A stretch of DNA of 31,686 nucleotides from a virus, in IMG/VR virus record IMGVR_UViG_3300009431_000082, positions 1 to 31,686 of that record, one strand, 5' to 3'. The position numbers were made by a program, and so were the translations under genes. Shown piece after piece: positions 1,961-25,000 of this stretch; position 1 is the stretch's first letter, and every line of letters starts with the position of its first letter. A model generated the notes under the pieces. That model saw only the letters and a list, made by a program, of their open reading frames with translations. It was not told the DNA's origin and made no database searches.

Positions 1961-1992
1961 TTTGGAAAAGGTGAAATTTTTCACTATCTTTG
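1961..1992 (+). promoter_or_regulatory. Bacteroidota-type promoter for the replication operon
   Basis: TTTG at 1961-1964 and TATCTTTG at 1985-1992 are separated by 20 bases. This matches the sigma-ABfr consensus (TTTG, about 19-21 nt, TAnnTTTG). It sits in the gap between 1937 and 2007 with the start codon 15 bases downstream, so the leader would be very short. Two other sites in the window (9307-9338 and 12432-12463) share the same spacing and the extended TTTGGAAA upstream box. Confidence 0.78.
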
Positions 1993-2006: not shown

Positions 2007-2270
2007 ATGTCAAAAATAAAATCCAGAATACAGTTATTTGACTTAGCAGTCAAACTAGTTGAAATTACCTATGGAAAGTTAGAAGACCCAGAACATTTAC
2101 TAGAAGTACTACAAACAGAATTCCCAGAGGATAATTACACGGAAGAGGACTTAATGGAGTGGAATTCACTACAAGCTGAAATAGAAGATATTTCGATTCA
2201 GCTTAAAACACAAGGACTATGTTGCGAGAGCTTACAATCAACATCCAGTCCTATCTCAAATCCAGATTAA
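2007..2270 (+). CDS. Hypothetical acidic protein, 87 aa
   Basis: First gene after the promoter. The protein is helical and acidic (residues 25-65 rich in Glu and Asp) with a C-terminal Ser/Pro tail. It overlaps the next gene by 52 bases, so part of its C-terminus may be dictated by the overlapping frame. No family is recognised. Its position at the head of a replication operon makes a regulatory or replication-accessory role plausible. Confidence 0.6.
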   Translation: MSKIKSRIQLFDLAVKLVEITYGKLEDPEHLLEVLQTEFPEDNYTEEDLMEWNSLQAEIEDISIQLKTQGLCCESLQSTSSPISNPD

Positions 2271-2821
2271 CACCATCAGAATATATAATTCTAATATTAA
2301 TACATAAGAAGGAACTAAAACTATTAGACCATATCGCAAAATCACTGTTTGGTGTTACTGATACATACTATGGCGAAGTTTTTACTTCGTTTCAAGATGA
2401 TGGTTGGCTTAAGATTACAGGAGATAATCTACCAGACGATCTTGAGGTAAGACAGAAATTTTTAAATCTCCTAGATGTAAAAGAAGAAGGTGAGGAAAAA
2501 CCAGTATTAGATGATTGGTATCGAGAATATCGTATGTTATTTAAGAATACGGGTAAGAAAGGTGCTATTGGAGACAGGGCTGCAATAATAAGTAAGTTCA
2601 GGAAGTTCTTTATATCTAATCCTGAGTATTCCAAAGAAGAAATATTAGAAGCAACAAAAACTTATATAAGAACATGTGCTCCATCATATAAATATATGAT
2701 GCAAGCAGATTATTTTATCAGTAAAGTAGATAAAGAAGGAATACCACATTCAAGATTGTTAACTTTCTTAGAAGAAGAGACAGAAGGAACTACAGAGACA
2801 GACTTCACAACTCAAATCTAA
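2219..2821 (+). CDS. Putative helicase-associated replication protein, 200 aa
   Basis: The N-terminal 60 residues look like a winged-helix or DnaD-like module: alternating hydrophobic helices, then a segment ending in SFQDDGWLKITG. The C-terminal half (about residues 95-185) has a helical region with a Tyr/Phe-rich pattern (YKYMMQADYFISK) reminiscent of helicase-loader or phage replication-protein C-terminal domains. It ends three bases before the DnaB-like helicase gene. The role as loader or partner of that helicase rests on position and general appearance, not on a diagnostic motif. The start overlaps the previous gene because no later in-frame ATG comes before the probable N-terminal domain. 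Confidence 0.6.
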   Translation: MLRELTINIQSYLKSRLTPSEYIILILIHKKELKLLDHIAKSLFGVTDTYYGEVFTSFQDDGWLKITGDNLPDDLEVRQKFLNLLDVKEEGEEKPVLDDWYREYRMLFKNTGKKGAIGDRAAIISKFRKFFISNPEYSKEEILEATKTYIRTCAPSYKYMMQADYFISKVDKEGIPHSRLLTFLEEETEGTTETDFTTQI

Positions 2822-2824
2822 GAT

Positions 2825-3919
2825 ATGATAATTGACGATGTAATAAGAAACGTAGAAAGAGGTAAAGAAGGTGGTAATCAGGGACTCTACATGGGGTTTC
2901 CAAGACTAATGGAATTTGTCCCAGGTGTCCAGCCGTCAACCATTTACAACCTTGGTGGTATGACCGGTACTGCTAAAACCACCTTTGCCCTATCTTCATT
3001 TATGTACAATCCTTACGAGGACTACTTGCTGAGAACAGCTGCAGGTGAGGTAATTAAATTTAAAGTATTCTTATTTTCAATGGAGATGTCTAAGGAGACA
3101 GTCATTGCAAAGGGTATTTGTAGAAGAATATTCAAGGATCACAAGTTAATAGTTGATACTAATTACATCTTATCTCGTGGCAAGAACAGGATTTCACAAG
3201 AAATTTATGACAAAGTATTAGAAACACGTAAGTATTTTGAACCACTTGAAGATGTAGTAACAATCCTGGGATCTCACAATCCTACTGGAGTTGCTAAGAT
3301 GCTAAAGAAATATTTTGAAGATAATGGCAAGGAAGAACGAGTACCCTTTGAATTTAGAGATGAAAATGGTGTATTACATAAAGTATCACGATTCAAGAAA
3401 TATAATCCTAACATTGAAAATACCTATGTAATTGCTATTTTCGACCATGTTAGTCTAACCAAGTCAGAATCACACAAGAATGTTAAGCAGACGATTGATA
3501 AGTTAATGGAGTATCTGGTAGAGTACACAAATAACTACTACCTAACTTCAGTGATTGTTCAGCAGCTTAACAGGAATGTTGAAGGTGTAGATAGGATGAA
3601 GTGGAACGCTATTGAACCTCAACTATCAGACTTTAGGGACACTAGTGATACTACACACGCTGCACATTTTGTGTTAGGACTAACTAATCCATTCATGTGG
3701 GAGAGTTCTCCCTACAGAGGTTATGACATTACCAGACTAAGAGACCGATTTAGGTCTGTTAAAATCCTTAAGTCCAGGGAAGGAATAGCCAGTATTGTAA
3801 TTGGATTAAACTATGTCGGAGAAGTAGGAATGTTCAGAGAATTACCACCAGCAGAACCAGAGAATAAAATGACAGAAGAAGAATACATACGAATATTAAA
3901 CCTTAAGAAATATGTTTAA
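2825..3919 (+). CDS. DnaB-like replicative DNA helicase (SF4, RecA fold)
   Basis: A 364-residue protein made of the ATPase domain alone; the usual DnaB N-terminal collar domain is missing. The Walker A loop is GGMTGTAKTT at residues 44-53, with Ala where Gly normally precedes the Lys. FSMEMS (84-89) is the typical helicase motif 1a. Walker B ends in IFDH (205-208), and QQLNR (246-250) matches the DnaB motif 3 region. Arg-rich segments after residue 300 may provide the arginine finger. As a hexamer it would unwind duplex DNA ahead of the phage fork. It lies between a putative loader and recombination genes. A Sak4- or KaiC-like protein is the alternative, but FSMEMS and QxNR favour DnaB. Confidence 0.85.
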   Translation: MIIDDVIRNVERGKEGGNQGLYMGFPRLMEFVPGVQPSTIYNLGGMTGTAKTTFALSSFMYNPYEDYLLRTAAGEVIKFKVFLFSMEMSKETVIAKGICRRIFKDHKLIVDTNYILSRGKNRISQEIYDKVLETRKYFEPLEDVVTILGSHNPTGVAKMLKKYFEDNGKEERVPFEFRDENGVLHKVSRFKKYNPNIENTYVIAIFDHVSLTKSESHKNVKQTIDKLMEYLVEYTNNYYLTSVIVQQLNRNVEGVDRMKWNAIEPQLSDFRDTSDTTHAAHFVLGLTNPFMWESSPYRGYDITRLRDRFRSVKILKSREGIASIVIGLNYVGEVGMFRELPPAEPENKMTEEEYIRILNLKKYV

Positions 3920-4085
3920 ACAAGTAGAAATAACCAATGTTACCGAAGAGACCAAACACCTCTACAAGGAAGATCGAATACATAAGGTATTTGGAGAGAA
4001 AAGAGATGAGTATTTAATAATGCTCAAGACTGGGGAGTTTGGCTATGTCTGGAAAGGTAACTGTAAATTAGTAGAGAATGAGTGA
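3912..4085 (+). CDS. Small hypothetical protein, 57 aa
   Basis: A short frame that fills the otherwise empty gap between the helicase and the Sak4-like gene. Its ATG lies inside the last codons of the helicase gene (AAATATGTTTAA) and its TGA overlaps the ATG of the next gene by eight bases (ATGAGTGA). The product is charged and ends in an aromatic beta-like stretch (GEFGYVWKGNCKLVENE). The nested junctions at both ends match the coupled style of this operon. Function unknown. Confidence 0.6.
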   Translation: MFKQVEITNVTEETKHLYKEDRIHKVFGEKRDEYLIMLKTGEFGYVWKGNCKLVENE

Positions 4086-4758
4086 GTTAATCGGAATTGT
4101 TGGATCGTCTGGTGAAGGTAAATCTACTTCAATCGAGACTCTTGATCCAAAATCTACCTTTATTATCAATGTTTTAGGTAAACCACTTCCATTTAAAGGT
4201 TGGAAAAGTAAATATGTTTTAGCTAACCCTAAAGAAGGCACTGGTAATTATGTCGAGACTGACAAACACAGTGAGATCATAAGTATTCTAGAACATATTA
4301 ATAAAACACGGACTGACATCAAGACTATTATTTTAGAAGATGCTCAGTATATTATGGCTAACGAAAACATGGCCCGTGCTTTGGAGAAAGGTTATGAAAA
4401 ATGGAGTGAACTTGCAAATCATATGTGGGGAGTTCTTAATAAAGCAAGAACCTTAAGAAGTGATTTAAAAGTTATCTGTATGTGGCATGATGAATCTATT
4501 AGTGAAAACTACCAGCCTAAACGTAAGATTAAGACAGCTGGGGCTATGCTTGACAGACACATTACAGTAGAAGGATTATTTACTGTAATTTTATTTACCA
4601 AAGTCACTACTGATCCTAAAACGAAAGTAAATAAGTACGAATTTGTGACTCAAACTGAAGATGGTACAACTGCTAAGTCTCCTAAAGGAATGCTTGAAAG
4701 ATACATTCCTAATGATTTGGCACTTGTAGTAAAAAAAGTTGATGAGTATTATAATTAA
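4078..4758 (+). CDS. Sak4-like RecA-fold ATPase (AAA_24 type), single-strand annealing
   Basis: 226 residues. Walker A is GSSGEGKST (9-17), and a Walker B-like strand ends in TIILEDA (83-89). Residues 133-145 form another beta strand with MWHDE, where sensor residues occur in this family. Length and layout match phage Sak4 / AAA_24 proteins, which promote single-strand annealing recombination with a phage ssDNA-binding protein. A candidate for that partner is encoded two genes downstream. A recombination-mediator role follows from family knowledge. The core RecA motifs are visible but the exact subfamily cannot be proved by eye. Confidence 0.78.
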   Translation: MSELIGIVGSSGEGKSTSIETLDPKSTFIINVLGKPLPFKGWKSKYVLANPKEGTGNYVETDKHSEIISILEHINKTRTDIKTIILEDAQYIMANENMARALEKGYEKWSELANHMWGVLNKARTLRSDLKVICMWHDESISENYQPKRKIKTAGAMLDRHITVEGLFTVILFTKVTTDPKTKVNKYEFVTQTEDGTTAKSPKGMLERYIPNDLALVVKKVDEYYN

Positions 4759-4778
4759 TTAAACTAAATTATTAAACT

Positions 4779-5150
4779 ATGACCGAAGGAAATGTGACTG
4801 AAGTTGTTGAACTGAGTATGCAGAAGATTGCCGTAGAACGTGCACTCGGAGCTAGTACTCAGGAACTATCTAACAAATACGGTATTAGTGTACCACAGAT
4901 GACATCAGCTCTAAGAGAGATGAATTTCATCAAGACACGTGGACCTGAAGCTGAAGATAGTACTAAAGGAGAAGAACTAACAGAGCGAGAAAAGAAATTT
5001 CAAAAAGTTTGTAAAGAAAATAAATTAGAAGAACCTAAAGTACATAAATTGTTATCTGAATTAGGAATGGAATACAAAACTGGAAGACGGAAGGGTGCTC
5101 TCAATGCTAAGAAGTACTCTATTATTTATGATTTAAAATTAGACGATTAA
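4779..5150 (+). CDS. Helix-turn-helix protein with two similar halves, 123 aa
   Basis: Residues 22-50 form a helix-turn-helix of the resolvase/homeodomain type (ASTQELSNKYGISVPQMTSA). Residues 70-108 look like a second, weaker copy. The two halves align around MTSALREMNFIKTRG and VHKLLSELGMEYKTGRR, suggesting an internal duplication. A Glu/Lys-rich linker joins them. The likely role is DNA binding, perhaps in regulation or origin recognition, but this is inferred. It lies between the Sak4-like gene and the putative SSB, and its stop directly abuts the next ATG. Confidence 0.65.
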   Translation: MTEGNVTEVVELSMQKIAVERALGASTQELSNKYGISVPQMTSALREMNFIKTRGPEAEDSTKGEELTEREKKFQKVCKENKLEEPKVHKLLSELGMEYKTGRRKGALNAKKYSIIYDLKLDD

Positions 5151-5963
5151 ATGCCAGTAAAAGGTAACAAAGGACAACAGGAAGTTGTCAGAAACGTAAG
5201 GCTTTACACAGGAATAGCTCCATTTAAGGTAATTGCAGTTAATCCTGATAAAGAGCATTTGGTGAAGATTGGTATTAATGCCCAGAAGGAACCAGAATAT
5301 CTTGTTGGAGACAGGGTTAGAGTTGACTTTTGGCTTGAGACACAATTTAAACCAGAAGAACTAACTGCACATAAACTGGATGAACAGATTAAAACCAAGC
5401 TATCAACATTTCTAGGTAGCAAATTCTCTACTAATGCAGCAGAAACTAAATATGAATGGATCAATTCGTTTGGTATTACTGCCTGGAGTAAAGATGGTGA
5501 CTCAGAAGAGACTCCGCCAGACTTACCTTGGTTTAAACTATCCAAAGAAAGAAAAGCTTATGTTGGTGAGGGACAACTAATTAATTTTATTGTTAATTGG
5601 ATTAACTCAGACACTAGAAAGGACGAAGTTTCTATTGATAATTGGGAAAATCTATTCAAAGGAGATGTTACAGAAATAAGAGGCATTTATGATGCTTACA
5701 AAGACAATATCATACGTTGTATGATGGATGTCAGAACCAATACTGAAGGAAGATCATTTCATGAAATTTATCCATATTATTTCACAAGGTGGAACCAGGT
5801 TGATCAAGCTGGTTGGCATAAGCACTTTACTAATATGCAAAGTCGTGGTAAGCTTAGCAATATTACTTTCTCCTACGAGATAAAGATATTTAAGCCTACC
5901 GAAGCTCAGCCGGATATTGAAACTATTCCATCTTCGGACGAAGTAGAAAGTGAGTGGAGTTAA
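5151..5963 (+). CDS. Putative ssDNA-binding protein, 270 aa
   Basis: A soluble protein with a Lys/Arg-rich start, a beta-rich first half (residues 18-60 contain an OB-like strand pattern such as PFKVIAVNPD and YLVGDRVRVDFWLE) and an acidic C-terminal tail ending DEVESEWS. Acidic tails of this kind are typical of SSB-like proteins. It lies between the Sak4-like ATPase and HTH genes upstream and the primase downstream, which is where crAss-like and other phages carry their SSB. There is no catalytic motif. The SSB call rests on context, length and tail, so confidence is moderate. Confidence 0.5.
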   Translation: MPVKGNKGQQEVVRNVRLYTGIAPFKVIAVNPDKEHLVKIGINAQKEPEYLVGDRVRVDFWLETQFKPEELTAHKLDEQIKTKLSTFLGSKFSTNAAETKYEWINSFGITAWSKDGDSEETPPDLPWFKLSKERKAYVGEGQLINFIVNWINSDTRKDEVSIDNWENLFKGDVTEIRGIYDAYKDNIIRCMMDVRTNTEGRSFHEIYPYYFTRWNQVDQAGWHKHFTNMQSRGKLSNITFSYEIKIFKPTEAQPDIETIPSSDEVESEWS

Positions 5964-5973
5964 ACTCTAAACT

Positions 5974-6948
5974 ATGTTTAAAGGTCACACAGCAATATCT
6001 AAAGATCAAATTTTGGAGAAGATTTCTGAGGAGGAACTCTTCAAATATTATTGTTCTGGATTTAAGAAGTTAGATGAATCATTTAAAAGTGACCTGAGAA
6101 AAGAAGACATTCCAAGCTGTCGGGTTTCAGACTTTGGTGGTTATCTATTGTACAAAGATTTTGGGAGTTCAGAACCAGGAACTAACATTTGGGGGTATCT
6201 GATGCGTAAGCATGGTATCAACTATTTAGAAACAATAGATATGATTGCCAGAGACTTTAACTTGACAGCTTCGGCTGTCTCACCTACAGAACAAGAAATT
6301 ATTTTACAAGAATCCAAGATTGGAAGACGTAGAAGAACTGTAATAAAAATAAAGAGCAGAAAGTGGCTAGAAATAGATAAGGAGTATTGGTATGAAAGAT
6401 ATGGAATAACTAAACAGCTTTTAATAGACTATACGGTTAAACCTGTTAGTCACATCTGGCTTAACGACTCAGTTATTAAGACAGCAGAGTTGTCCTACTG
6501 TTATGATTATTATTTTCATGAAGGAAGACTACTCCGTAAGGTGTACCAGCCCCTAAGTAATTGGAAATGGTACAGCAATATTGACAATACTGTAGTACAA
6601 GGAATAGCAAATATTCCTAAGTTTGCTGACCTATTAATAATTACCAAGTCTCTAAAAGATGTGATATGCTTGAATCTCCTAGGTTATCCTGCAGTGGCAC
6701 CTAATAATGAGATAACATGGCTACCAGAACCAGTTTGGGAGAAATTTAAGACACGTTACAAGCAGATGATAATTCTGTTTGATAACGATGAGCCTGGTAT
6801 TAATAATGCCCAAAGGTTCTCAGAGCAGTACAATATTCCATATTGCTACTTATCAGTAGAAGAAAATGTTAAGGATATCAGTGATTATATTGATAAGTAC
6901 AGAGACTTGGGTAAAGCTAAACAGTTGATTAAAAATCTAATAACATGA
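5974..6948 (+). CDS. DnaG-type primase with degenerate TOPRIM motif
   Basis: 324 residues. The N-terminal 90 residues resemble a primase zinc-finger region that has lost its Cys/His ligands (RKEDIPSCRVSDFGGYLLYKDF keeps the shape of the CHC2 fold). The TOPRIM domain spans about residues 215-300: ITKSLKD at 223-229 and LFDNDEPG at 268-275. In canonical DnaG the first motif carries a catalytic Glu (xxEGxxD); here that position is Lys-Ser, while the Asp pair of the second motif is kept. It would make RNA primers for the helicase encoded four genes upstream. A degenerate TOPRIM is known in some phage primases, so activity is likely but unproven. Confidence 0.8.
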   Translation: MFKGHTAISKDQILEKISEEELFKYYCSGFKKLDESFKSDLRKEDIPSCRVSDFGGYLLYKDFGSSEPGTNIWGYLMRKHGINYLETIDMIARDFNLTASAVSPTEQEIILQESKIGRRRRTVIKIKSRKWLEIDKEYWYERYGITKQLLIDYTVKPVSHIWLNDSVIKTAELSYCYDYYFHEGRLLRKVYQPLSNWKWYSNIDNTVVQGIANIPKFADLLIITKSLKDVICLNLLGYPAVAPNNEITWLPEPVWEKFKTRYKQMIILFDNDEPGINNAQRFSEQYNIPYCYLSVEENVKDISDYIDKYRDLGKAKQLIKNLIT

Positions 6949-7178
6949 AATCTCCGATACAAGGATACCCAATAAAGATTCCTACTAGTATGATACAAAG
7001 GGATAAAAACCCCTGGAATATGGTTCTTAACGGAGAATCATTTCCAACACGTCCTGGAATAGGTGGGGAATTTTTTGCCATAAATTTTGAAGACAACTGG
7101 AAGAATTATAAAGCAATCAGTGGTTACCCAGGACCTAAAGAAGTTCCAAACAAGGAGGTAAATAATGAAGAAGAATAA
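6945..7178 (+). CDS. Small protein with NPWxxVLxG motif (paralogue A), 77 aa
   Basis: It overlaps the primase by four bases (ATGA). Residues 22-36 read NPWNMVLNGESFPTR, and the protein ends NNEEE. The next gene begins with NPWQLVLEGKIHPT and ends NNEEA. In both cases the last 14 bases hold the start of the following gene within AATGAAGAAG. The pair thus looks like a tandem duplication that included the gene junction. Function is unknown; Pro/Gly-rich composition suggests a small peptide-like binder rather than an enzyme. Confidence 0.6.
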   Translation: MKSPIQGYPIKIPTSMIQRDKNPWNMVLNGESFPTRPGIGGEFFAINFEDNWKNYKAISGYPGPKEVPNKEVNNEEE

Positions 7179-7479
7179 TCCTTGGCAGTTAGTTTTGGAA
7201 GGAAAAATCCATCCAACTGTTTCTTACCAGCCGTACATTCCATTAGTAGAGTTAGTTATTAATGAAATGAGGAAACCTGACTCCGAATTAAATAAAGCTT
7301 TTAAGAACTTTTACCTCTGGATTTATGAGACATCCTTAATACTAACAGAACTAGGTTCGTACAAGCAACTCCAGGAAGAATCTTACCAGTATTCTAATAG
7401 TGTGTTTGACATAAAGTGGTTAGATGGAATAGTTGGTGATTTGATAAGACAAGATCCTATTAACAATGAAGAAGCGTAG
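7165..7479 (+). CDS. Small protein with NPWxxVLxG motif (paralogue B), 104 aa
   Basis: It begins MKKNNPWQLVLEGKIHPT, sharing the NPW-x2-VL-x-G motif with the product of the preceding gene, then continues with a helical region (residues 28-75) absent from that paralogue. It ends NNEEA, again overlapping the next start by 14 bases. There is no catalytic motif. The shared N-terminus suggests both proteins bind the same partner; this is inference. Confidence 0.65.
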   Translation: MKKNNPWQLVLEGKIHPTVSYQPYIPLVELVINEMRKPDSELNKAFKNFYLWIYETSLILTELGSYKQLQEESYQYSNSVFDIKWLDGIVGDLIRQDPINNEEA

Positions 7480-7864
7480 AGGAGTAGGTGGTGTAAAGAA
7501 GGTAGCCGGAACAATCTACAACAAGATTAAATTTAAATCCAAGCTAGAACTATTTATGTACAAACAACTTAAGGAAGCCAAAATAAAGTTTGATTATGAG
7601 AAACATAAATTTGTTCTAATCAAAGGTTTCTCCTACGGGGGAAGAAAGATCAGGTCAATTACTTACACGCCTGATTTTGTATTGAAAGACCATCCTGTTG
7701 TGATTGAAACTAAGGGATTTATTACTGAGGTCTTTAGAATTAAGATGAAGCTATTTAAATGGTTTCTGACAAATGAAAACGATGTAAGGGACATTTACAT
7801 GCCTAGAAATCAGAAACAATGCTTAGAAGTAATTGAAATTATTAAACAAAAATACAAAATATGA
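7466..7864 (+). CDS. PD-(D/E)XK endonuclease (DUF1064 / resolvase-like)
   Basis: 132 residues with the PD-(D/E)XK active site complete: Glu at 28 (KSKLELFMY), Asp at 70 (YTPDF), and Glu-x-Lys at 81-83 (VIETKG), followed by a helix with FRIKMKLFKW. The N-terminus is strongly basic (MKKRRGVGGVKK). Size and motif spacing match small phage nucleases of the DUF1064 type, related to Holliday-junction and T7-endonuclease-I-like enzymes. Likely role: cutting branched DNA during replication and recombination. Placement directly after the primase module agrees. The exact substrate cannot be read from sequence. Confidence 0.78.
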   Translation: MKKRRGVGGVKKVAGTIYNKIKFKSKLELFMYKQLKEAKIKFDYEKHKFVLIKGFSYGGRKIRSITYTPDFVLKDHPVVIETKGFITEVFRIKMKLFKWFLTNENDVRDIYMPRNQKQCLEVIEIIKQKYKI

Positions 7865-8187
7865 CACTAGAATTAGTTTGGAAAAACCCTAAGTCCTATT
7901 GGACAAATAAGTTTCCGCTTAAGAACAGCGAAGTCTTAGTAACTGGTTGGTACAATACTGGGGAATCAGATAATAATGGAAAAATTTTAACAAAACCTAG
8001 CTTTGAAGTAGAAGCAATCTTAATGGTAATTACTAACCCTAAGGGCCAGATAGTTCACATACCAGTAAGTAAGATGCTAGAAGATCTTAACTCCATTACC
8101 TGGAGAAAAGATACAGATAACGATTTATTTGAGTACTTTGAACATAAAATGATTGAATATTGTGGAAAACAAATTAAAGAGAGGTGA
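7861..8187 (+). CDS. Hypothetical protein, 108 aa
   Basis: Starts in an ATGA overlap with the nuclease gene. Trp- and Asn-rich start, then a predicted beta-rich body (EVLVTGWYNTG, VEAILMVITNPKGQIVHIPVSKM) with a C-terminal helix. It resembles small phage proteins with an SH3-like or barrel fold, which is an impression only. No catalytic residues are evident. The end overlaps the next gene by up to 35 bases. Confidence 0.6.
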   Translation: MTLELVWKNPKSYWTNKFPLKNSEVLVTGWYNTGESDNNGKILTKPSFEVEAILMVITNPKGQIVHIPVSKMLEDLNSITWRKDTDNDLFEYFEHKMIEYCGKQIKER

Positions 8188-8443
8188 TTTGGTTCTAATT
8201 GGAAGTACAGTTCATGTTTGTCTAGAACCGAACGAAAGAGATGGTTTCTACAACATGCTTCCTTTAGAGTACTATTATGGTAGATTAGATTTTACGAAAA
8301 TGCACGATTATGGTAAAAGTCTTATTGCTAAAGAATCAATAGAATATGTTTTTTGTAAAGTATCTCCAAAACAGTTATCAGAACCACAAAAAAGAGATTA
8401 TGAGAAGATTAAGACAAAAGGATTAGACACAGATTTACTATGA
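8153..8443 (+). CDS. Hypothetical protein (tandem paralogue 1), 96 aa or slightly shorter
   Basis: The only start codons are non-ATG: TTG at 8153 or GTG at 8162; both overlap the upstream gene. The protein begins with KRGDLVLIGS and ends with VSPKQL...RDYEKIKT. The next gene product has the same layout (IRLFDLVAIGT at the start, KIDPDQL...INYDKLMK at the end), so the two are probably diverged tandem copies. The beta-rich N-terminus looks like a small barrel. Function unknown. Confidence 0.55.
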   Translation: MNIVENKLKRGDLVLIGSTVHVCLEPNERDGFYNMLPLEYYYGRLDFTKMHDYGKSLIAKESIEYVFCKVSPKQLSEPQKRDYEKIKTKGLDTDLL

Positions 8444-8799
8444 AACACAAAGAAACAAGATTTAAGTACATAAATGGAGAACCAATAAGACTATTTGATT
8501 TAGTAGCAATTGGTACTTATGGTAGTTTATTTTGGTTTGGGTTAGTCTCTCCTAAGACACTAAAGTACCATACTTTACATATTATCACACTAGGTGGTTC
8601 AAGGGTTTGGGGCCAAACCAGAACCTTCGTCATAACTGGGCCAGATATTCTAATGGACTGGGGAACAGACTTCATTGCATCAAATATTGAAGGAAAAATA
8701 GTCAAAATTGATCCAGATCAATTAAACAAAGAAATGAGAATAAACTATGACAAACTTATGAAACAAATAAATTATGAGTCTTCAGCAGATAACACTTGA
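8440..8799 (+). CDS. Hypothetical protein (tandem paralogue 2), 119 aa
   Basis: ATGA overlap with the preceding gene and a 26-base overlap with the rIIA-like gene. It shares with its neighbour an N-terminal DLVxIG strand and a C-terminal P-x-QL-(x4-6)-R-x2-Y-(D/E)-K-(I/L) pattern. Between these lies an aromatic stretch with hydrophobic strands (YHTLHIITLGG, TFVITGPDILMDWG). No signal peptide. Not recognised beyond the paralogy. Confidence 0.6.
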   Translation: MKHKETRFKYINGEPIRLFDLVAIGTYGSLFWFGLVSPKTLKYHTLHIITLGGSRVWGQTRTFVITGPDILMDWGTDFIASNIEGKIVKIDPDQLNKEMRINYDKLMKQINYESSADNT

Positions 8800-9248
8800 C
8801 ACAACTGGTACTAAAGGTATCAAAAAGGAAATAAATTTAAATAGCATCAACGTAGTACTAGATGCACTACAAGTTTACGCCTACTCCAACCCAATTGAGA
8901 GTACGGTAAGAGAGCTTACATCTAATGCACTTGATGCTCAGCGTGAAAAAGAAATAGCTCTGGAGATTCTTGAAGGAAAAGCTAAACCAGAGGATTATTT
9001 TATTGAGAAGAAGGGTAAGGAATTTGAGGACAGCAAGTTTGATGTTACTTACTACAATAAAGATTGGCTAGATTCAGAGCAGAATGAGGTGGAACTAGAG
9101 TACTATGATATTCCCGGTTCTGGCTTCTGCGATGAATTTGTGGTAAGAGATTGGGGAGTAGGAATCGGTAATGGTAGACTTGAAGGAGTTTTACAGCTAG
9201 GATTTTCTAGCAAGAGGAACTCACGTGAACTAATAGGCGGATTTGGGT
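8774..9248 (+). CDS. rIIA: rIIA-like GHKL ATPase, exon 1 (join 8774..9248, 10213..12428)
   Basis: Exon 1 encodes residues 1-158 and the first base of codon 159 of an 896-residue protein. The GHKL (Bergerat) ATP-binding fold is clear: N-box ESTVRELTSNALDA with Glu47, Asn51 and Asp54, then the G1 box RDWGVGIG with Asp126, Gly128 and Gly130. The exon stops inside the G2 ATP-lid motif (GGFG|L). Without splicing, translation adds MKI and meets a TAG at 9260-9262. Joining to 10213 gives GFGLGQKSALS, the expected lid. T4 rIIA, the family reference, is a membrane-associated protein acting with rIIB against prophage exclusion; the function here is inferred. The start at 8774 overlaps the previous gene by 26 bases. 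Confidence 0.85.
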
Positions 9249-9306
9249 TAATGAAGATCTAGCCCAGTTATTTTGTAAAAAATAATTAAAAATATTACAT
9301 GAATTA

Positions 9307-9338
9307 TTTGGAAAACTAAGGAAAATGTTGTATCTTTG
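9307..9338 (+). promoter_or_regulatory. Bacteroidota-type promoter inside the intron, for the homing endonuclease
   Basis: TTTG at 9307-9310, a 20-base spacer and TATCTTTG at 9331-9338, with the TTTGGAAA upstream box shared by the promoters at 1961 and 12432. Initiation would be expected a few bases after 9338, only about 20 bases before the endonuclease ATG. It allows the endonuclease to be expressed independently of the rIIA-like pre-mRNA. Confidence 0.75.
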
Positions 9339-9362
9339 TACCTAGACATAAACCTCTAGGTA
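9339..9362 (+). repeat. Inverted repeat sequestering the endonuclease start codon
   Basis: TACCTAG (9339-9345) and CTAGGTA (9356-9362) are perfect 7-base complements with a 10-base loop. G-U pairs could extend the stem by two. The right arm includes the A of the start codon at 9362-9364. The left arm begins right after the TATCTTTG box, where transcription from the internal promoter should start. Read-through RNA from the rIIA-like gene can form the whole hairpin; RNA started at the internal promoter probably lacks part of the left arm. Confidence 0.65.
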
Positions 9363-10081
9363 TGAAAAATAGGAATCATAATTATTTTGATAAAATAGAC
9401 ACAGAATACAAAGCTTACATTTTAGGTTTCATTTTTGCTGATGGGACAATTGAGTTAGCAAAAGGAAACAGAATGAAGAGACTTAGAATATCTGTGCAAA
9501 TTGAAGATGGTTACATTCTTGACAAACTTGGAAAGGATGTGGGTAACAAAAAAACTGTTGTAAGATATCCACCGTCTTCTGTTAAAAATAGTTGGAAGAA
9601 ACAACTCAGTTTATCTATTAGCTCAGACATTTTGTGTGATAGGTTAATTGAACTAGGTTGTGCACCAAGGAAGTCCATTGTAGGAATGGATTTTCCTAAA
9701 TTACCAACTAAAATGGTTAGACATTTTATTAGGGGCTTCTTCGATGGAGATGGAAGCATTGTTATTAACAAATACATTTACAAAGGAAAATACAAGTCAA
9801 GAGTATTCAGGCGTAAGAGAATAGCATTGTGTTCAACATCTCAACAATTCTTAGAAGACTTAATAAAAGAACTACCAATATCAAAGATTTACAAAACTGT
9901 AAGAGTAAGAAATCTTTCGGTACATATTTACTGGATCGAAAGAAAAGCAGATATTGTAGAGATGAATAATTACTTTTACAAAGATTCCGAATTTTTTCTT
10001 CAAAGGAAAAAAGACAAGTTTTCTATGTCAACCAAGAGCCAAGCCTTAGGTACACCTAAGGAAGGTCTAGAGACTACCTGA
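9362..10081 (+). CDS. LAGLIDADG homing endonuclease encoded in the group I intron
   Basis: 239 residues with two LAGLIDADG motifs, so a monomeric two-domain enzyme: YILGFIFADG at 19-28 and HFIRGFFDGDG at 121-131. Each ends in the catalytic acidic residue. The protein is basic, as usual for this family. It should cut intron-less alleles of the rIIA-like gene near the insertion point, so that repair copies the intron. Its last codons run into the intron core: the reading frame covers the probable P5 hairpin and the 5' strand of P7 and ends at 10081. It has its own promoter and a start-codon hairpin just upstream. A dual maturase role is possible but not indicated. Confidence 0.93.
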   Translation: MKNRNHNYFDKIDTEYKAYILGFIFADGTIELAKGNRMKRLRISVQIEDGYILDKLGKDVGNKKTVVRYPPSSVKNSWKKQLSLSISSDILCDRLIELGCAPRKSIVGMDFPKLPTKMVRHFIRGFFDGDGSIVINKYIYKGKYKSRVFRRKRIALCSTSQQFLEDLIKELPISKIYKTVRVRNLSVHIYWIERKADIVEMNNYFYKDSEFFLQRKKDKFSMSTKSQALGTPKEGLETT

Positions 10082-10212
10082 GCAGTTTAGTCTGCTTAAT
10101 AACAGGAAGTAGGTTACCTTAGTCGGTAACTGAAAAAGCGTGTAACACCCTACCAAATTTAGAGGGTGATGAGATAGTCCGACACTCATGGAAACATGAG
10201 ATTAACAGAAAG

Positions 10213-12428
10213 TAGGTCAAAAATCAGCTCTGTCTACAGGTGCACCAATGTACACTATGATTACAGCACATGAAGGCAGACTATTCAAGTTCAATATCTA
10301 TTCTGATAAGATTGATATTCTAGTAGGAAAGTTAAATGAAGAGACGGGCAAGAAGAACAGATTTGTAACATTCTCACACGGAGAGCAAGTTCACTATGAA
10401 GAGACAAGACGTAAGAATTTTACGGAAATAATTGTACCTGTAAAGAAGTTAAATAAACATAAGTTCATTGATGCTGTTAAATCACAGCTACTTTATTTAC
10501 CTGGAGTTAAGTTTTACACAACCGAAGGAGAGAATCGTTACGAAGAGTCATTCAGAGCAGAAGTTTTGTACGAATCTGAGAATATTGTTATTAGTAACAA
10601 CCGTAGATTTGGCAGACCCCACTTGCTGGTGGTCAAAGACAAATCAGCAAATGCAGGAATATGTTACAACGAGATTGACTATAAAGAACTAGAGTTAGAA
10701 CAACGTTACGGTAAGGTAGCTCTTAAGGTTCAGACCAGGGCTGTTACTAAGGATGAGAATGGTAAAGAAACTCTTATTAATGAAGGAATAGCAGTAACAC
10801 CCAATAGAGAACAGGTTATCTGGAATGATCATACTAAAGAGTATCTGTTAAAGATTACCAGAGGAGTATCAGAAGAAGCTGCACAAATAATTGAGAAGGA
10901 GCTGAAGGAAGAAGACTTCTTAAGATGGATTAATAAAGCAGTCCAAGTTACTTCCAACTTTAAGTATGGTTCAGTGCTTCACGAGATCTCGCAAATGGTT
11001 GACAAGTCAACTATGGCACCTAAATTCCCGAAAGACAAGACAATAAAGCTAAAGGAGCTAAAGAAGTTGTTTTGGGGATTAGATGTTAGACATGTACGTC
11101 TGGTAAATGAGTGGGGACGTGGTGGTAATACTAAGGTTACTAAGGTACATAGAGATAAGATTGACTCATGGCACCACTTTGGTGGTAAGAATGTCTTTCT
11201 AAAGACCGAGCCTACGTCTCATGTTAAGGACCGTTACATTATGTCTAAGATTCTAAAGCAGGACAGCTACGGACAGCATGATCAGGGATTTCTGATGGTA
11301 GAAACACTTGATTATGACGCTTTATTAGAAGAGGCTGTTGCTAAAGGATCTACTGCTAAGGCTAGAAAGGAAATTGAAGAGAAACTAAATAAACTAGTAG
11401 AACAAAGAACTAAGGTACTAGATTTATTGAAAGCATCAGAAGACATTAAGATTTATGACGATGTAGAGGTACCAGATGACTTTAAAGTAGAAGCAGAAGA
11501 GACGGAAGCTAAGATTGAGGAGCTAATAAAAGAAGAAACTATGTCACTAGAGGCTTTACGTAAAGCTAACGGTCAAGTAGTGTTCTTTACTCCAAGACCA
11601 GACCAAGGCTGGAAACATAGTCCTGACTTAGTAATGGAAAAACAGGAAGAGAAAATCTCAGACTTGTCTTCAATATTTGAAAGAGTTTACTATGGTTTTG
11701 ATGAAGATCGTCCTAAGCTGGAGTGTGCTTGTAAAATACTAGGTAGAAATGATCAGAAGTCTTGGTACAACTCTAAACTAGCAATCGTAAAAATAGCTAA
11801 ATCTAATGAGAAGCACTTCAAAACAGTAGGAGAACATATTAGTAAATTCTTTTATGAAATAAATAACAAACAGGAAGTAATTGTGACACAAGAGGTATCA
11901 GACTACATAACAGCCAGGCACATATCTAAGAAACTGGAAGAAGCTAAATTTAGTTTCTTCACTAATTATGGAATAGTTGATGAAAGATTAGCTAGTATTT
12001 ACAAACACCTGGTAGAATTTGCAGGCAGGAGCTTTGAAACTAAGTATAAACTAAGTACTGGACGTGAAGAAACAGAGAAGGAGATGTTGGAGAATCTACT
12101 TAAGTATGCAGAGTTCCAACAGTTCGTGGAAAAGAATGGTGATGATGATGCCGCAATTGCAACTAAGAGTAAAGAATTATTTACAGTAGAAGGTGTAAAA
12201 GGTTCAAATATCTTACAGATGGTTGAACTAAAGAGACTAGGTCTCTTAGAGGAATATGCAGAAAACATATTTCCTCTGTTCAATGAGATAAATGTTCTAA
12301 CCAGTGTAAGATACGACGACAGTGTTGATTCTAGAATCATCAATATGATAAGAATTATCCTAAGAGAGTACAATCTAGAGCCTTTTGACATTCCAGAAGA
12401 ATTATTAATTAAGAAAAAAAGTGACTAA
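10213..12428 (+). CDS. rIIA: rIIA-like GHKL ATPase, exon 2
   Basis: Exon 2 supplies the last two bases of codon 159 (Leu) and residues 160-896, beginning GQKSALSTGAPMYTMI, which completes the ATP lid. An ATG at 10248 in this frame is not needed as a start, because the open frame upstream of it encodes conserved lid residues. The next 200 residues are beta-rich (GHKL transducer-like region). A helical, acidic coiled-coil-like segment (about residues 475-560) and a mainly helical C-terminal third follow. The length is close to that of phage rIIA proteins (T4 rIIA is about 725) but longer. The rIIB-like gene comes next, behind its own promoter, reproducing the T4 rIIA-rIIB pairing. Confidence 0.83.
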
Positions 12429-12431
12429 AAA

Positions 12432-12463
12432 TTTGGAAATTTTCAAAAAGTTTATTATCTTTG
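12432..12463 (+). promoter_or_regulatory. Bacteroidota-type promoter upstream of rIIB-like gene
   Basis: TTTG at 12432-12435, a 20-base spacer and TATCTTTG at 12456-12463, within the 51-base gap between the rIIA-like stop and the rIIB-like ATG at 12480. The extended TTTGGAAA box matches the other two promoters. The start codon lies 17 bases downstream. Confidence 0.78.
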
Positions 12464-12479
12464 TAAAAATCAATTGATT

Positions 12480-13673
12480 ATGATAAATATTAATGTTAGT
12501 GGAAAACTAATTTCGGGTTCCTATGGAAGGGAACAGTTCGTTGTACGCTACACAAAGGAGCGGTATGACAAAATGATGGAGATTAAAAAGGATGCTGACA
12601 AAGCTGAGGATTTAACTGCACTACAAAACTATTATTCTGAGTTTGCTGGTTACACCAAAGAGACAGCTAAGGAGATGGTAGAGACTATCTGTCCTTACAT
12701 CTACCAAGATGATTTGACAGAAGAATTTTTCTTAAAAAGTGAAGATGTTATTTCATCCATTCCAATTCCTCAAGTACTTGTTGACAGAATACTAGAATCA
12801 GCAGAAAAAGGAATTGATTTTGAGCCACTTGTTAAATTGTGGATAAGATGGTTACGTAATCCCAAACTAAGGAGGGGTACTAAACAGCAAAGGCTAGCTT
12901 TCTCGGACCTATTTGCTAACTACATAAGTACATTCTTCGTTAATGTAGAGAAGACCAGAGAGTTAATGGATGATCAGGGACTAGCAGAAGAAGTTGCTAT
13001 CAAACTATCTTCAGTTAGTGATGTATCGGTAACCCAGGAAGGGCTACTCTGTACTTATAAGGTAGTTAATGAACTATCCGAGTACACTAGCTACGATGAA
13101 GAAGGTAAGTTTGTCTCTAGTCGAGAAATCCATAATAAGGAGACTGACAACGAAACAGGTTTATCTGTAACTGAACAACCCAAACTTAACGAAGGAAGAG
13201 TCTTTGAACCGTGTATGATGAGAGACCGTGGTGATGCTATTTACATCGAGGGAGCAAACGGTTATCCAAACAGAGAACATAAGGTTAAAATTGGTTGTGT
13301 GCACAGACTACCAGACTGGAGCTATGTTAACACAGATGACTCAGTAAGCTGTGTAAAAGGTCTACATACAGGTTCTCTAACTTACGTTAAAGGCTGGCAA
13401 AGTTGTGGGAGTGAGACATTGGATGTACTACTCGATCCGATGCATATTGGTGCTGTAGCTAATGGTGATAATGCATTAAGAGTATTACAATATTTTGTAC
13501 ACGGAGCTTGGACCGGAACTAATGGTTCAATCTATCACTCTTCTACCTACGCTGCACAGACAGACGAGGAGTGGGACAGAATGCGTAAGGAAGTAGTTGA
13601 GTATTTTGCCAGAGAAAGAGAGAAAGTGATTGAAGCTCAGGATGAAGAAATTGCTGAGATTGAAGCTATTTAA
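12480..13673 (+). CDS. rIIB: rIIB-like protein
   Basis: 397 residues from the ATG at 12480; a TTG at 12474 would add two residues but is less likely. The C-terminal third carries the rIIB signature region: KGLHTGSLTYVKGW, followed by a strand and LDPMHIGAVAN and LRVLQYFVHG, matching the GLH-x-(A/G)S-x2-YVxG pattern of the family. The N-terminal half is helical with no clear motif. Cys residues around 230-310 are scattered. In T4, rIIB works with rIIA at the membrane against Rex exclusion; its biochemical activity is unknown. Adjacency to the GHKL gene strongly supports the assignment. The C-terminal tail is a Glu-rich helix. Confidence 0.8.
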   Translation: MININVSGKLISGSYGREQFVVRYTKERYDKMMEIKKDADKAEDLTALQNYYSEFAGYTKETAKEMVETICPYIYQDDLTEEFFLKSEDVISSIPIPQVLVDRILESAEKGIDFEPLVKLWIRWLRNPKLRRGTKQQRLAFSDLFANYISTFFVNVEKTRELMDDQGLAEEVAIKLSSVSDVSVTQEGLLCTYKVVNELSEYTSYDEEGKFVSSREIHNKETDNETGLSVTEQPKLNEGRVFEPCMMRDRGDAIYIEGANGYPNREHKVKIGCVHRLPDWSYVNTDDSVSCVKGLHTGSLTYVKGWQSCGSETLDVLLDPMHIGAVANGDNALRVLQYFVHGAWTGTNGSIYHSSTYAAQTDEEWDRMRKEVVEYFAREREKVIEAQDEEIAEIEAI

Positions 13674-19065: not shown

Positions 19066-22000
19066 TTAGCGTTTGAATCTTCCACTTGGGTTGTAGGTAT
19101 CCCAAACATCCAGCATATCTACTACCTTGTTTACACCAGGAAATATTTTAGATGTGTAATAAAGCTGTCTGGTCCTATCTTCAGCTTTAGTAGGTTCCTC
19201 GCCAGTAATTAAGTAACCAGCTTCTTCAATAGTATTATTAAGTAAGTTGTAAAGATCTGTTATCATCCTGATATGAGGTAGGATATTTTGTCCAACCTGT
19301 TGTACAGATGCGGGACTTAAGAAGAAGGAGACTTCTAGATAACCACGGTTTAACATTCTGTAACCAATTACAGCTATTTTGTACATTGGATCTTCTTCAT
19401 CATCTGGAAGTGCAGCACGCATTCCAAATACTAGTAGTGCAAAGCTTAAATAGACTCTCAACTCTGCAGCCATTCCTTTAAGTTTAGCTACTCTCAGTTC
19501 AATAAAATCTTCCAGTGATAGTTGCTCTTTAGTTAGTCTATTCTTCCTAATGTACTCATTGTAAAAATGCTCCGAACGTTCCTGGCTAACATGAGTATCA
19601 AAATAACCCATATTAATAACTTCCTTAGCTAGGTTCCCAAAAGCCTTAAGTCTGGGCATTAATCCCTTACCTGTAAACTCACCAAAAGCTACCTTCATCC
19701 TACCAACGTCATAGTCACCAAACTCATTAGTACTGAAATTCTTAAATCTGGCACTAATCAAACCTGGTAGCCAGTTTTTAAACATCATTGCAGAAGACAG
19801 GTACATGTTTGTTCCAACAGCATTCTTATCTTCTGTAGACATCATTCCATTAATAGTTACTAAAGCTGATCTTACACGCTTTCTCACTTCTGTGTAGATT
19901 TCATCAGTTAGTCCTTCAATCTTAATACCATCTTCTGTAAGTTCAGCTGAGTCTAGTAGTGATTTACCATTTTTAATTTTAGAAATCTTCTTAAGTTGAC
20001 CATCACTAGGGTCAATACCGTAGTTCTGTAACATTGAGAGTAATACATCGTAACTCACCTGCATGTCTCCCCAACGCATCATTGAAAAAGCTTGATCCAT
20101 TGTAGCCCACTTGGTAAGCTGATTAGCAGAAAGACTCTTGTTTCTCTTTAAAACTAACTCACTCTTATTTGGCTCAAAATAACCCATAAGAGCAATCCAC
20201 TTAGGATCTTTATTGACAAACCTGTATTGAGTTCTCCTTAACTGTTTTAGTGTAAAGTATCTACCCTCTGTAGCAGCCATTAACAGTTGAGACTTACTGC
20301 CTAAATAGTTACCAGCAGCTAACAGTGGACTAAATCCCATCGCTTTGAGCGAAATAAAGTTATTAACCTTATGTAAGATTTTCTTGCTGGAATACTGTCT
20401 TCTACCAACTGTAAAAGTTCTATCAGTTGCACCTCCTTTAATTCCATACCAATACAAATCAGTAAATTTATCCAAGAGTTCAACTTCACCTTGAGGAATA
20501 CCCATCACATTAGCAATCTTATTAGTTAAATTATCAATAACAGGACTACCATCACTATTCTGAATAATAGTTTGCTGATTAGGATCACTCATCATATGTT
20601 TAAGAGACTTAACGTTAGTCTCTGTATCCTTAAAAGCCTGATGTGTGTAAACTGACTGGGCAAATGTAAATGCTGACTGAATCAAATCAACATTCTTAAG
20701 TTTTTTAGCCTTACCATATTCAAACTGTTCTAACCTGTATTCAAACTCACTAGTAAAGTCTTCAGAACCCTCAATGTATTTTTCTTCTATTAATTTATTC
20801 GTAATAGCTTTTCTTTCTTTCCTGGAAGCTGCTTCTCTTAATTCATGGTAGTAAGGTATTGGGACTCCCTTAATGGGTTTCCCCTCTGAATTAACCATAC
20901 TGATAGTACCACGAATTGGATCATGTTGTTGTACTTGGATTGACTGTAAAAAATTAGAAGCCAACCTGCCCACAGCGAATATTCCATTCTGTGAGACACT
21001 TTCCATTGTGGATTGGTAAATATTAGCTACAAAATTTTCACTAATAGGTACATCTACTATCAGATTAAGTTCCCGCATTAAATCAGTGTAAAAATCGTAG
21101 AAGTCTTTAAGTGGTTTATTAGCTTCCATGTATTTCCACTCATTTGTTACGTAGGTATTATCTTCCTTATTAATATCAATAAACTCATTATTGGGGTCTG
21201 TTACTGCATCCCTGTATTTACCAACATTATTCTGCTTTTCCCAAGTAGCCATAATAGAGTTTACACTGTCTTGTCCACCAATTATTGAACCATAAGCTTT
21301 TTCCAAGGACTGTCTCATGCTTTCACGACGTTCTTCAAACTTCTTCTGTACTTCCTCACTGTATTTGTAGGATGGTCTTTCATCTACAACCTTGCCTGCT
21401 TGTATGTTAGTGTGTTTAATAAACCAGGATGTATTGCCTTCTTTTCTGGCCTCTTCTAGATCATCATAGTACTGTTTACTAACCCTGCGAATAAGGTGCC
21501 CTGTTTCAGGATTATAAATCTTTTTGTAAGCCTGCATTAGAGATAATCCGTTACTTCTGGCCCACTTAGTCAGAGCTACCTTCTGTTTCTCAGCTTCTTC
21601 CCCTAGCTTAAGAAGTTTATCATTAATATATTTGTAGTTGGTATGGACAATTTGACTTAATGCTCTTAGTATCGGATGCTTAGACCTACTAAGTCTTCCA
21701 AATAGACGGTCCATTATTCCAGCACGTTCAGTTGGTTCTTTAAAATCTTGTTTAAGTGTACCAACAACCTTACCACCTATTTTAAGTGTCCTAAGATTAT
21801 CCTCAGATTTATGATTTATTCGCCTGTTTAAACTCTTAATAAGAAATGAAGCATTTTTCAGTTTCCTTATTAGCTTTTTATCCTTCTTTCCTGTCTGTCT
21901 ACCAAGTTCTTCAACATGATCTACAGCATCTAATGCGAAGTCCTCAAAGATATTCACGTAGTCACGGAGTTCACGCAGATCTTCTCCGTCTAAATAATTA

Positions 22001-25000
22001 GGATTTGGCTTACCATCAGCATCAAATTCGTCTGGAAATGCTTCACGTTCTTTAAGGAACTGGTTAATCTTCTTAAGTTCCTTCAATACGTAATTGACAT
22101 CTTGTTTAGTTTGCAGTCTCTTAATTACTTCATCTATTGCTTTAATTCTAGCCTCAAGTCTCTTGTTTCTCTTATCTTTGAAAAGAAGTCTGTCTAACAT
22201 ATTAGCTCTCTGCTTAGTCAAACGCTCTAAGGTGTCATTAATAGCTTTAAATTCAGTTAACTCAACAGCACTAGGAATAGTAGCTAGATGAGGATTCTCC
22301 TTATCACCATACCCAGATTCCATAAAGGCAATATTACCAGTAGTTTTATTAATATTAGCAGTCAATGGAACAATTCTAGACAAGCCAAATCTAGTTATTC
22401 CGTAACCATTTTCAAGCATGTTCTTGTAGGTAGTTAGCTGGAGATCATAAGCTTGTCTTTTGTACCACTTAATATCAGAAATGGTTCTCTTTCCAACTAC
22501 ATGTCCAGACAAAGACTTCCAGTCAAAAATACTTACTGCTCCATTACTATGAACTATCAATAGATCAATAGTTCCAGCCATATCCTCAGAAGGATCATGA
22601 ATAATTAGCTCTTTAAAAATAGTCGGTCTTGAAGGCTCGCCAGTAGTTTTTTTAATATTATCCTCTACCTCTTTAATTTGAGCAACAACACCTTTTATCG
22701 TAGGTATTACCCCAGCGTTGAAATGTTTTGGTAACAGTATCCTATCGAACTCTTCTTTAGTAATATCTTTAAAACTTGTTAGGTCTTTAATCTCATTCCA
22801 AACCTGGCTTCTAATATTTGCAAACTTTATCTCACTATTATCCCATACCAAATTAAAGGTTAATTCCATGTATTTATGGATAATAATTCCTACACGGGCT
22901 GCCTGCTCGGACTCTTCATCAGTCCTATCAGAGTTTCTGAATAGTCGTCTGTAAAAACTTTTAACTACATCGCTGGCTCTTTGTCTAATCTTTTTATTAG
23001 TAGACTTATTAATATATCTAGCTGTTTTATCATCTAGCACTATATTATCTTTAGACAGTTCCTCTATGATTCTATCACGTTCTGCTTTAACCTCCGGAGC
23101 TACCTCATAAAACACTAAGGGCCTATTAAGTGATTCTATTGGTCTTAATTGGGAAATATCCTCCTCTAAGACCATCCTAGCAGCTTCTTTGAAAGGATTA
23201 ATAACTTCCTCAAGCTCTTTAGTACTTACTCTCCTAAACTTACTCTTAATAAAGTTCCACAATCTGTCCCACCAGCTTTGTATTTTCTCAATTTTCTGTG
23301 GTGTCTCAGTACCAGTCTCTTGAGCTACAATATGTTTGGCAATAAGCTTACCAACAGCTTCTCTACGTAACTTATCTTCATTATCCTTGTACTCCGCCAG
23401 TTCTCCGTACTCAGCCACTGTCTCATTGTAGACCTCATACTGAGTAATATCATTAATCATCTTTTGTACCAGTGGATGATCTCCTAATAGTTCTAATAAG
23501 AAATGAGAAGCTTCTTCAGGTAATGTATCAATCTTAGCTTTACCCTCAACTATGGAAACTACTTTGTGGAGCATATCTGCTTTAGCAATAGCACTCATTT
23601 CCTCACCATTCTTATTAACTACCTTAATCTCATCAACTGAGTTTACGTCAATACCAATACGGTTTAGGAAAGCTGTTATTTTAGCATCTAAAGTTCTAAG
23701 AGGCGAACGTTTTTCCTCAGTTTTCTTCTGAAATAAAGGTAACTGAGTATCTGGGATAAATTCTATTGTGTAAAGATCTGCTTGTCCAACCTTAGCAGGG
23801 ATAGCTCTGTGAGAGGTTCCATGCTCTTTATTGTAAGTACCTATACGCTTCAACAACATATTCTTTTGAAGATCAGAATACTTATAGCCGGGATTCCTAA
23901 TTCCCAATTCCTTTTTTAATTGATTAACAGGTGATTCAGCCTGAAGAAAAGACTCAGGTTCTCTAGCTGTCTGAATATCTAAAGCATCTAGCACGGAAAT
24001 ATTAATCCTATTTTCATACTCTGCAAGTGTCTCAGCCTCTTCTTTCTTAAGTAAAGTGTGTTGGTACTCATGTTCAAGTACAAACTGTCTCCAACTCTCA
24101 TAAGTCTTAAACGTATCATCAGGAATTGGAGTAACACCTTCTACTTGAGGAGTAGTCCAAGCCTTCTGGTTAAACTTTTCTCGTAGCAGTTTTTCATCCA
24201 GCTTAATAGTACCCTCACTTAATCTTGCAGCAACCTTCTGATCATTAGTATTAATCATCCCAGAGGCTTTAATAACCTTAATACCTCTGTACTCCTTTAT
24301 TACTCCGCCCTGAGTAACCATTGAGGGTTTAGATGACTCCAACATCTGGTCAACATAAGTATCGTCTTCAGGACCTTCCTCATAAACATCATTGGTTAAA
24401 ATTAATCTATCAGATGTGTATTTATTCTCCGAAATATTATTACCAAAATCAGTAACACCTAGAGAATTTTCATCTACTTTATTCTCTCTTGTTCCTACAA
24501 AAACATCTGGTATTGCTGCAAATAGATTTCTGCCAAACGAAAGTTGTTCTATTATCTTCTTACCTTTAATTTTAGGATCAATAAGACGTTTAGTTGAGAA
24601 GAACTTGAAAAGCTTGTTAATCTTCTTACTTCTCTTCTTGACAGGATGAACCATTGTCTTAATCTTAGTATTCTGAAGAGGTACCTGGTTTCCATAAGAT
24701 TCATAAATTGAAGATTTCTCTTCTAAAGACTTAGCATCAAACTGATTGAATAGTTTACTGAAAATAGTATTGTAGACTTCAGCAGGCATTAAGTGCCAGA
24801 AACTCATCGGACTATTAAGCATACCAGTCTGCATAATAGTAAACTTAAATAAATCAATTCCAAATGGTTCTGCCAGTAGTTGCTCCCAGTCTGCAACAAG
24901 TTGATTTATCTCAATCTTATTAAGTTTAGTAGAACTGTAAGTAATGTAATTACCAGCTTTAACATTAGTTCCAGGGAACTTTTGGTAGTTAGGTCTAACG

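Follow-up and report, generated by a model that had tools for sequence, protein, structure and literature searches.

A probable mobile group I intron in the ATP lid of rIIA, with a predicted promoter and start-codon hairpin for its LAGLIDADG endonuclease gene

The intron, its host gene and the phage

The window analyzed here is the whole of an IMG/VR virus fragment of 31.7 kb (IMGVR_UViG_3300009431_000082; 31,686 nt). A run of + strand genes extends from 2007 to 12428, and ends with rIIA, which is followed by an rIIB-like gene (12474..13673, +; PHROG 609 RIIB, E=2.6e-8). The rIIA gene is in two pieces. Exon 1 (8774..9248, +), recognized from PHROG 612 (RIIA), Pfam HATPase_c_3 and homologues, encodes the N box, the G1 box and the first half of the ATP lid. 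It is separated from exon 2 (10213..12428, +) by a 964-nt group I intron of subgroup IA (9249..10212, +), which is supported by a match of 39 bits to Rfam RF00028, by covariation and by intronless homologues. Joining the exons yields a single 896-aa frame that reads GGFG|LGQKSALSTGAPMY across the junction, and without splicing the protein ends at residue 162, as the preliminary description had stated.

The splice coordinates given in that description are exact. P1 (UUGGGU/GCCCAG) pairs 9243-9248 with 9262-9267, with a U9248-G9262 wobble at the 5′ splice site; P10 (UAGGUC/GAUCUA) pairs the guide at 9256-9261 with exon 2 at 10213-10218; and the intron ends with G10212. Since there is a T at both 9249 and 10213, the junction could be shifted by one T in the DNA. 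The alternative junction, after 9249 and 10213, would produce the same mRNA but would break both the P1 wobble and the terminal G, and was rejected; it is these two features that select 9248/10213.

The host gene was described as an rIIA-like GHKL ATPase, and this assignment is borne out by RIIA and GHKL profile matches to the spliced protein and by the rIIB-like neighbor. Exon joining raises the PHROG 612 score from 38 to 58 bits (E=1.5e-15 for the spliced protein) and the HATPase_c_3 score from 20.1 to 28.9 bits, that is, from below to above the Pfam cut-off of 25. The spliced frame also aligns through the junction to intronless homologues, in agreement with the proposed restoration of the lid's glycine motif. 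One such homologue, L005, has an unbroken 887-aa ORF that is 46% identical to the spliced protein, with no gap at the junction (GGFGLGGKAPL). A profile of the window and L005 proteins found 78 further intronless loci, all of which read GxFGLGxK at the junction. A continuation other than GFGLG was sought in L005 and these 78 loci, and was not found. The window-lineage homologues are the best 80 of 144, a ranking in which an intron would lower a locus's place; the patterns used in the scan (DAQREKE and KxKxEDY) both lie in exon 1, and therefore do not select against introns. A search of INPHARED with the unspliced exons gave no match at 1e-5, so the window rIIA lineage is absent from that phage collection, and a PDB search with rIIA gave no match. 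An assembly artefact is rejected, because a near-identical second contig carries the same intron; a pseudogene reading of rIIA was likewise rejected.

The phage itself is probably crAss-like, as proposed earlier, because of the matches of its primase and of a giant RNA-polymerase-like ORF. The best primase matches, at ~30-33% identity, are mostly from crAss-like phages, with other Bacteroidota phages also present. The giant ORF (19066-31686, −) encodes at least 4206 aa, contains the motif AGSDFDIDKLN and runs off the contig end; its DFDID region matches RNA-polymerase-like proteins in 77 records, mostly from crAss-like phages. No structural genes (MCP, TerL, portal) were recognized on the 31.7-kb fragment. 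Elsewhere in the window, a small gene (6945-7178) is the site of a 99-nt in-frame insertion in the near-identical sister contig L001 (1756-1849, against window 7097-7101), with 99.3% identity upstream and 100% downstream.

The ribozyme core

The group I reading holds on the evidence of the core, covariation, P1 and the terminal G. The Rfam search suggested for checking it gave a more mixed result: RF00028 matches at E=3.2e-8 for 1 kb, but the score is under the gathering score of 50. RF00028 missed the intron in a scan of the whole window, and gave no match at E≤0.1 in 18 kb of three contigs with related introns (L214, L216 and L217). These low or missing matches are explained by the ORF inserted in L5, which splits the core. 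Thus, the intron illustrates why Rfam and gene callers overlook such elements.

The core can be followed strand by strand. Downstream of P1 lies the P2 hairpin (9268-9274/9279-9285, from folding), followed by the 5′ strands of P3 (9295-9301, with 10139-10145), P4 (9307-9311, with 10032-10036) and P5 (9315-9316 and 9319-9324, with 10027-10028 and 10019-10024). The endonuclease ORF sits in the P5 loop, an assignment that follows from the presence of the 5′ strands of P3, P4 and P5 upstream of it. Beyond the ORF interior are P6 (10038-10040/10064-10066 and 10044-10051/10054-10061), the P7 5′ strand GACUA (10072-10076), P7.1 (10080-10085/10092-10097), P7.2 (10112-10118/10125-10131), the P3 3′ strand (10139-10145), P8 (10146-10151/10163-10168, from folding), the P7 3′ strand UAGUC (10175-10179) and P9 (10185-10190/10195-10200). 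The intron is placed in subgroup IA because P7.1 and P7.2 are present between P7 and P3.

The pairings were compared across 12 distinct introns, aligned with the ORF interior omitted and with the structure drawn from the window. Across this alignment, 91.7% of cells are paired, as against 33-45% in slid-strand controls; 27 of the 61 pairs changed on both sides, and none of 500 shuffles reached any of five measures. Most of the covariation comes from P3 (two-sided change in 3/7 pairs, all cells paired), P6 (6/11, all cells paired), P7.2 (6/7) and P9 (6/6). P7 is invariant in all 12 introns. P8 shows two-sided change in 3/6 pairs, with some misalignment, and the outer part of P5 is weak by both fold and alignment, with 68% of its cells paired.

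The endonuclease gene, its promoter motif and its start codon

The ORF (9362..10081, +) encodes a 239-aa LAGLIDADG protein with both motifs and their acidic residues (LGFIFADG and RGFFDGDG). It scores 131 bits against PHROG 4645, 32.3 against PF00961 (cut-off 23.1) and 29.4 against PF14528 (cut-off 22.5), and by family it is taken to be a homing endonuclease that would cleave intronless alleles. Relatives in the phage collection are only 27-34% identical, one of them being annotated in a known intron; bacterial genomes contain distant endonucleases only, at ≤39% over short stretches, and the only LAGLIDADG matches in a PDB search were weak. The 3′ end of the ORF passes through P4, P6 and the P7 5′ strand, and in nearly all members the last codons, Glu-Thr-Thr-stop (GAGACUACCUGA), are the P7 strand itself.

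A promoter-like motif precedes the ORF by 55 nt (9307..9338, +). It consists of a −33 TTTG (9307-9310) and a −7 TATCTTTG (9331-9338) at a spacing of TTTG-N20-TATCTTTG, it lies on the P4-P5 strand, and it fits the Bacteroidota sigma-ABfr consensus, which is −33 TTTG and −7 TAnnTTTG (PMC7366714). The window has three exact copies of the fuller form, TTTGGAAA-N16-TATCTTTG, and 100 shuffles have none. The other two copies lie between rIIA and the rIIB-like gene (12432..12463, +) and upstream of the gene at 2007 (1961..1992, +); the latter may mark where the operon that leads to rIIA begins. Of the 14 distinct introns, 10 have an exact TTTG-N19/20-TAnnTTTG, and the + strand of 121.5 kb has only 12 matches in all, these 10 included; the −7 boxes of the other four (L307-L310) depart from the consensus by one or two bases. 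In L242, L243, L254 and L271, TTTG-N20-TAnnTTTG also lies 47-51 nt before the ATG of more distant endonucleases (32-35% identity), which suggests that endonucleases of this type commonly have such a promoter. Another phage carries 9-11 copies of TTTGGAAA-N16-TATCTTTGTAT over ~11 kb (L157 5798-11158 and L159 3276-9924), at a near-fixed distance of mostly ~24 nt before successive ATGs, in the manner of a regular promoter array.

The start codon itself (AUG, 9362-9364) is enclosed in a 12-bp hairpin (9335-9346/9355-9366, +), the left arm of which starts in the −7 box. The predicted energy is −13.2 kcal/mol (z −4.9, 0/200 shuffles). A stem reaching from the end of the −7 box to the start-codon region can form in 14/14 introns with differing sequences, for example AUAACC/GGGUUAU in L307 and UUUGGAAC/GUUCCAAA in L311, where the stem stops just short of the AUG. 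Taken singly, 7 of the 14 hairpins fail to beat shuffles at p<0.05. For a transcript starting 4 nt after the −7 box, the energy of the window hairpin falls from −13.0 to −1.4 kcal/mol. Both the hairpin and the promoter motif had escaped the preliminary description.

What could this layout do? The T4 td intron, which encodes I-TevI, has an internal promoter, a hairpin that hides the start, and an ORF that overlaps the core; removal of the hairpin harms splicing, presumably through ribosomes entering the core (PMC2988022). The same combination of internal promoter, start hairpin and core-overlapping ORF is present here at the sequence level. Four steps can be envisaged. First, the ribozyme would excise itself from rIIA transcripts and restore the lid, a step strongly supported by comparison. 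Second, in long rIIA transcripts the start codon would be locked in the hairpin, keeping ribosomes off the ORF and hence off the core. Third, the promoter laid over P4-P5 would give rise to a separate transcript beginning near 9343, inside the left arm of the hairpin. Fourth, this transcript would not contain the complete left arm, so the hairpin could not form and the endonuclease would be translated. Hence, the hairpin probably keeps the endonuclease silent until the separate transcript is made. Since the promoter is of host type, the same as that of neighboring phage genes, it may be the choice of transcript, rather than infection time, that sets the switch. If this is correct, splicing and endonuclease output are separated by transcript choice, and the intron is an independent Bacteroidota counterpart of the I-TevI switch.

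The promoter is the part of this scheme with the strongest competing explanation, in which the intron and endonuclease are as found, the promoter is unused, and the TTTG and TATCTTTG blocks are kept as parts of P4, P5 and the hairpin. The −33 box is indeed the P4 strand, and therefore its conservation does not count separately in favor of a promoter; in the −7 box, TTTG doubles as the hairpin base. However, the other half of that box, TAnn, falls outside P4/P5 and the hairpin, and it is nevertheless kept as TATC, TAAC or TATA in 10/14 introns at a spacing of 19-20 nt. In addition, the Rfam group I consensus at P4 is GCGGGAAA, not the TTTGGAAA of the window, and the exact 16-base motif stands before two ordinary window genes and many genes of another phage. 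An unused promoter is thus unlikely, and a used one is the preferred reading. Taking these features together, the locus probably holds a mobile, self-splicing group IA intron in the rIIA ATP lid, with a LAGLIDADG endonuclease under promoter and hairpin control. The splice solution, the ribozyme, the intact endonuclease ORF, the conserved promoter-like motif and the hairpin can all be read from the sequences compared.

Recurrence, spread and known counterparts

The intron is not confined to the window. Profile scans of IMG/VR uncovered ~20 other contigs with endonucleases 43-55% identical to that of the window, a recurrence in rIIA genes that the preliminary description had missed. In every such contig with readable flanks the site is in rIIA after GGGT, matched by a GGGU/GCCC guide pairing; the exception is L214, which has CGGT at the site and a guide changed to match (CGGU/GCCG). 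P10 varies in a similar way: in L306 the exon sequence CUCGGU is matched by the guide ACUGAG, and the L216 equivalent is CUAG/CUAG. In 14/14 distinct introns, exon 1 ends with GGU, the intron ends with G, and splicing restores G-x-G^LGxK.

Two rIIA lineages carry the element. The window and L311 belong to one, and the other 12 of the 14 distinct introns belong to a sister lineage related to the common RIIA family; the spliced L216 protein matches 2501 phage records, and the primase beside the L214 rIIA matches mostly crAss-like phages. The insertion point differs by one nucleotide between them: it follows the first base of a Leu codon in the window and L311 (GGGT|TAGGT), and lies between the Gly and Leu codons in the sister lineage (GGGT|CTAGGT). 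Thus, the element follows the GGGT sequence rather than the codon. Empty alleles are plentiful in both lineages, with 79 in that of the window (L005 and 78 others, from the best 80 of 144) and 80 of 80 in the sister lineage (best 80 of 294), where the site reads GMMGLGFKAP. The preliminary description had the insertion in the most conserved part of the ATP-binding fold. This is only partly right: the amino acids at the site are invariant in those 80 sister-lineage relatives, but its DNA is only moderately conserved, with 108 of 576 sliding windows more conserved.

How did the intron come to be in both lineages? Between them, rIIA proteins are 20-30% identical and endonucleases 43-50%; in values sampled within the sister lineage, rIIA is 61-78% identical and the endonucleases 55-90%. 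Lateral homing is the better reading, because between lineages the endonucleases are more alike than their rIIA hosts, and vertical descent is disfavored, because a conserved host region is not expected to outdiverge a selfish endonuclease. In such homing, the enzyme would cut intronless rIIA at GGGT/TAGGT and the intron would be copied in. We infer this from the protein family, the many empty sites and the greater similarity of the endonucleases than of the host genes. The recurrence of the intron in the rIIA of many phages also indicates that the ATP-lid site is conserved enough to be a homing target.

Some LAGLIDADG proteins act as maturases. It could therefore be argued that the intron is immobile and was inherited vertically with rIIA, its endonuclease being kept as a maturase, and it is true that every close endonuclease relative found sits in rIIA. 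Nonetheless, both catalytic acidic residues are retained, filled alleles are far outnumbered by empty ones among the relatives kept, and the between-lineage contrast described above is not what immobility predicts; L307 and L216 likewise have endonucleases that are 90% identical in rIIA proteins that are 73% identical. This makes a maturase in an immobile intron improbable. The simplest alternative of all, an rIIA gene broken by a free-standing endonuclease gene with no splicing, fits the unspliced stop at residue 162 and is scarcely credible given the covarying ribozyme core, the terminal G, P1 and P10, exons that join in frame at one and the same residue for 14 distinct introns, and an exon 2 that is still open. 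A spliced and mobile intron is thus retained. It is somewhat more probable than the contrary that the introns form a distinct rIIA family, which homing has carried between deeply diverged crAss-like and related phages and in which P4-P5 combines the roles of catalytic-core strand, host-type promoter and hairpin entry.

Much of this has precedent. Control by hairpin and promoter is known from T4 (PMC2988022), and LAGLIDADG-type group I introns are known from Delta and Zeta crAss-like phages, where they are listed in the genes for MCP, PolB, primase, ATP_43b and RNAP, rIIA being absent from the main text (Yutin et al. 2021, PMC7886860). Like T4 td/I-TevI, and the nrdB and nrdD introns, the element described here is a group I intron that interrupts a phage gene; like td, it has an internal promoter directly before the ORF, an ORF with a 3′ end that overlaps the core, and a hairpin that masks the translation start when transcripts read through but is absent from internal ones (here as a prediction). 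There are also clear differences. The endonuclease is LAGLIDADG rather than GIY-YIG or HNH, the host gene is rIIA, the promoter belongs to the Bacteroidota sigma-ABfr type and not to the T4 late promoters, and it overlaps the ribozyme P4/P5. Moreover, the start codon itself is paired, whereas the T4 hairpin hides the Shine-Dalgarno. The promoter inside the intron suggests that the T4 solution, to splice long transcripts and translate only short ones, was reached in another phage group, with another endonuclease, promoter and host.

The LAGLIDADG-type introns of Delta and Zeta crAss-like phages differ in host gene. The intron of the crAss-like phage cr116_1 (L010) is a group I intron with an RF00028 score of 92 bits, a 29%-identical endonuclease, a promoter of the form TTTGGAGA-N16-TATCTTTG and, immediately ahead of the AUG, a possible hairpin. 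It is in a different gene, and its ORF is 5′ of the core, so its promoter does not overlap P4. A related LAGLIDADG endonuclease (27-29%) is I-MsaII (L013), from an intron in the rec (RecA-like) gene of staphylococcal kayviruses, which differs in gene and host; no Bacteroidota-type promoter was found upstream of it. A search of largely open-access literature found no report of an rIIA intron. What appears new, then, is rIIA as host gene and site, the presence of the intron in two rIIA lineages that are far apart, and a layout in which ribozyme core, Bacteroidota-type promoter and start-codon hairpin overlap. Few phage genes are as widespread as rIIA, the function of which is still a matter of debate. 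The motif inside the intron also provides a precise predicted Bacteroidota-type promoter in uncultured crAss-like phages.

Two further intron cores were encountered in the contigs examined. The rIIA gene of L307 (IMGVR_UViG_3300032327_000596) contains a second group I intron at ~1750-2960, located at the FPTPNRES motif, with a different LAGLIDADG ORF (1814-2737) and a core that matches the first family (E=1.3e-13). L062, a window-lineage rIIA contig, has a short, weak intron-core match at 10590-10730 (E=3e-4), well downstream of rIIA, which is possibly a related intron in another gene.
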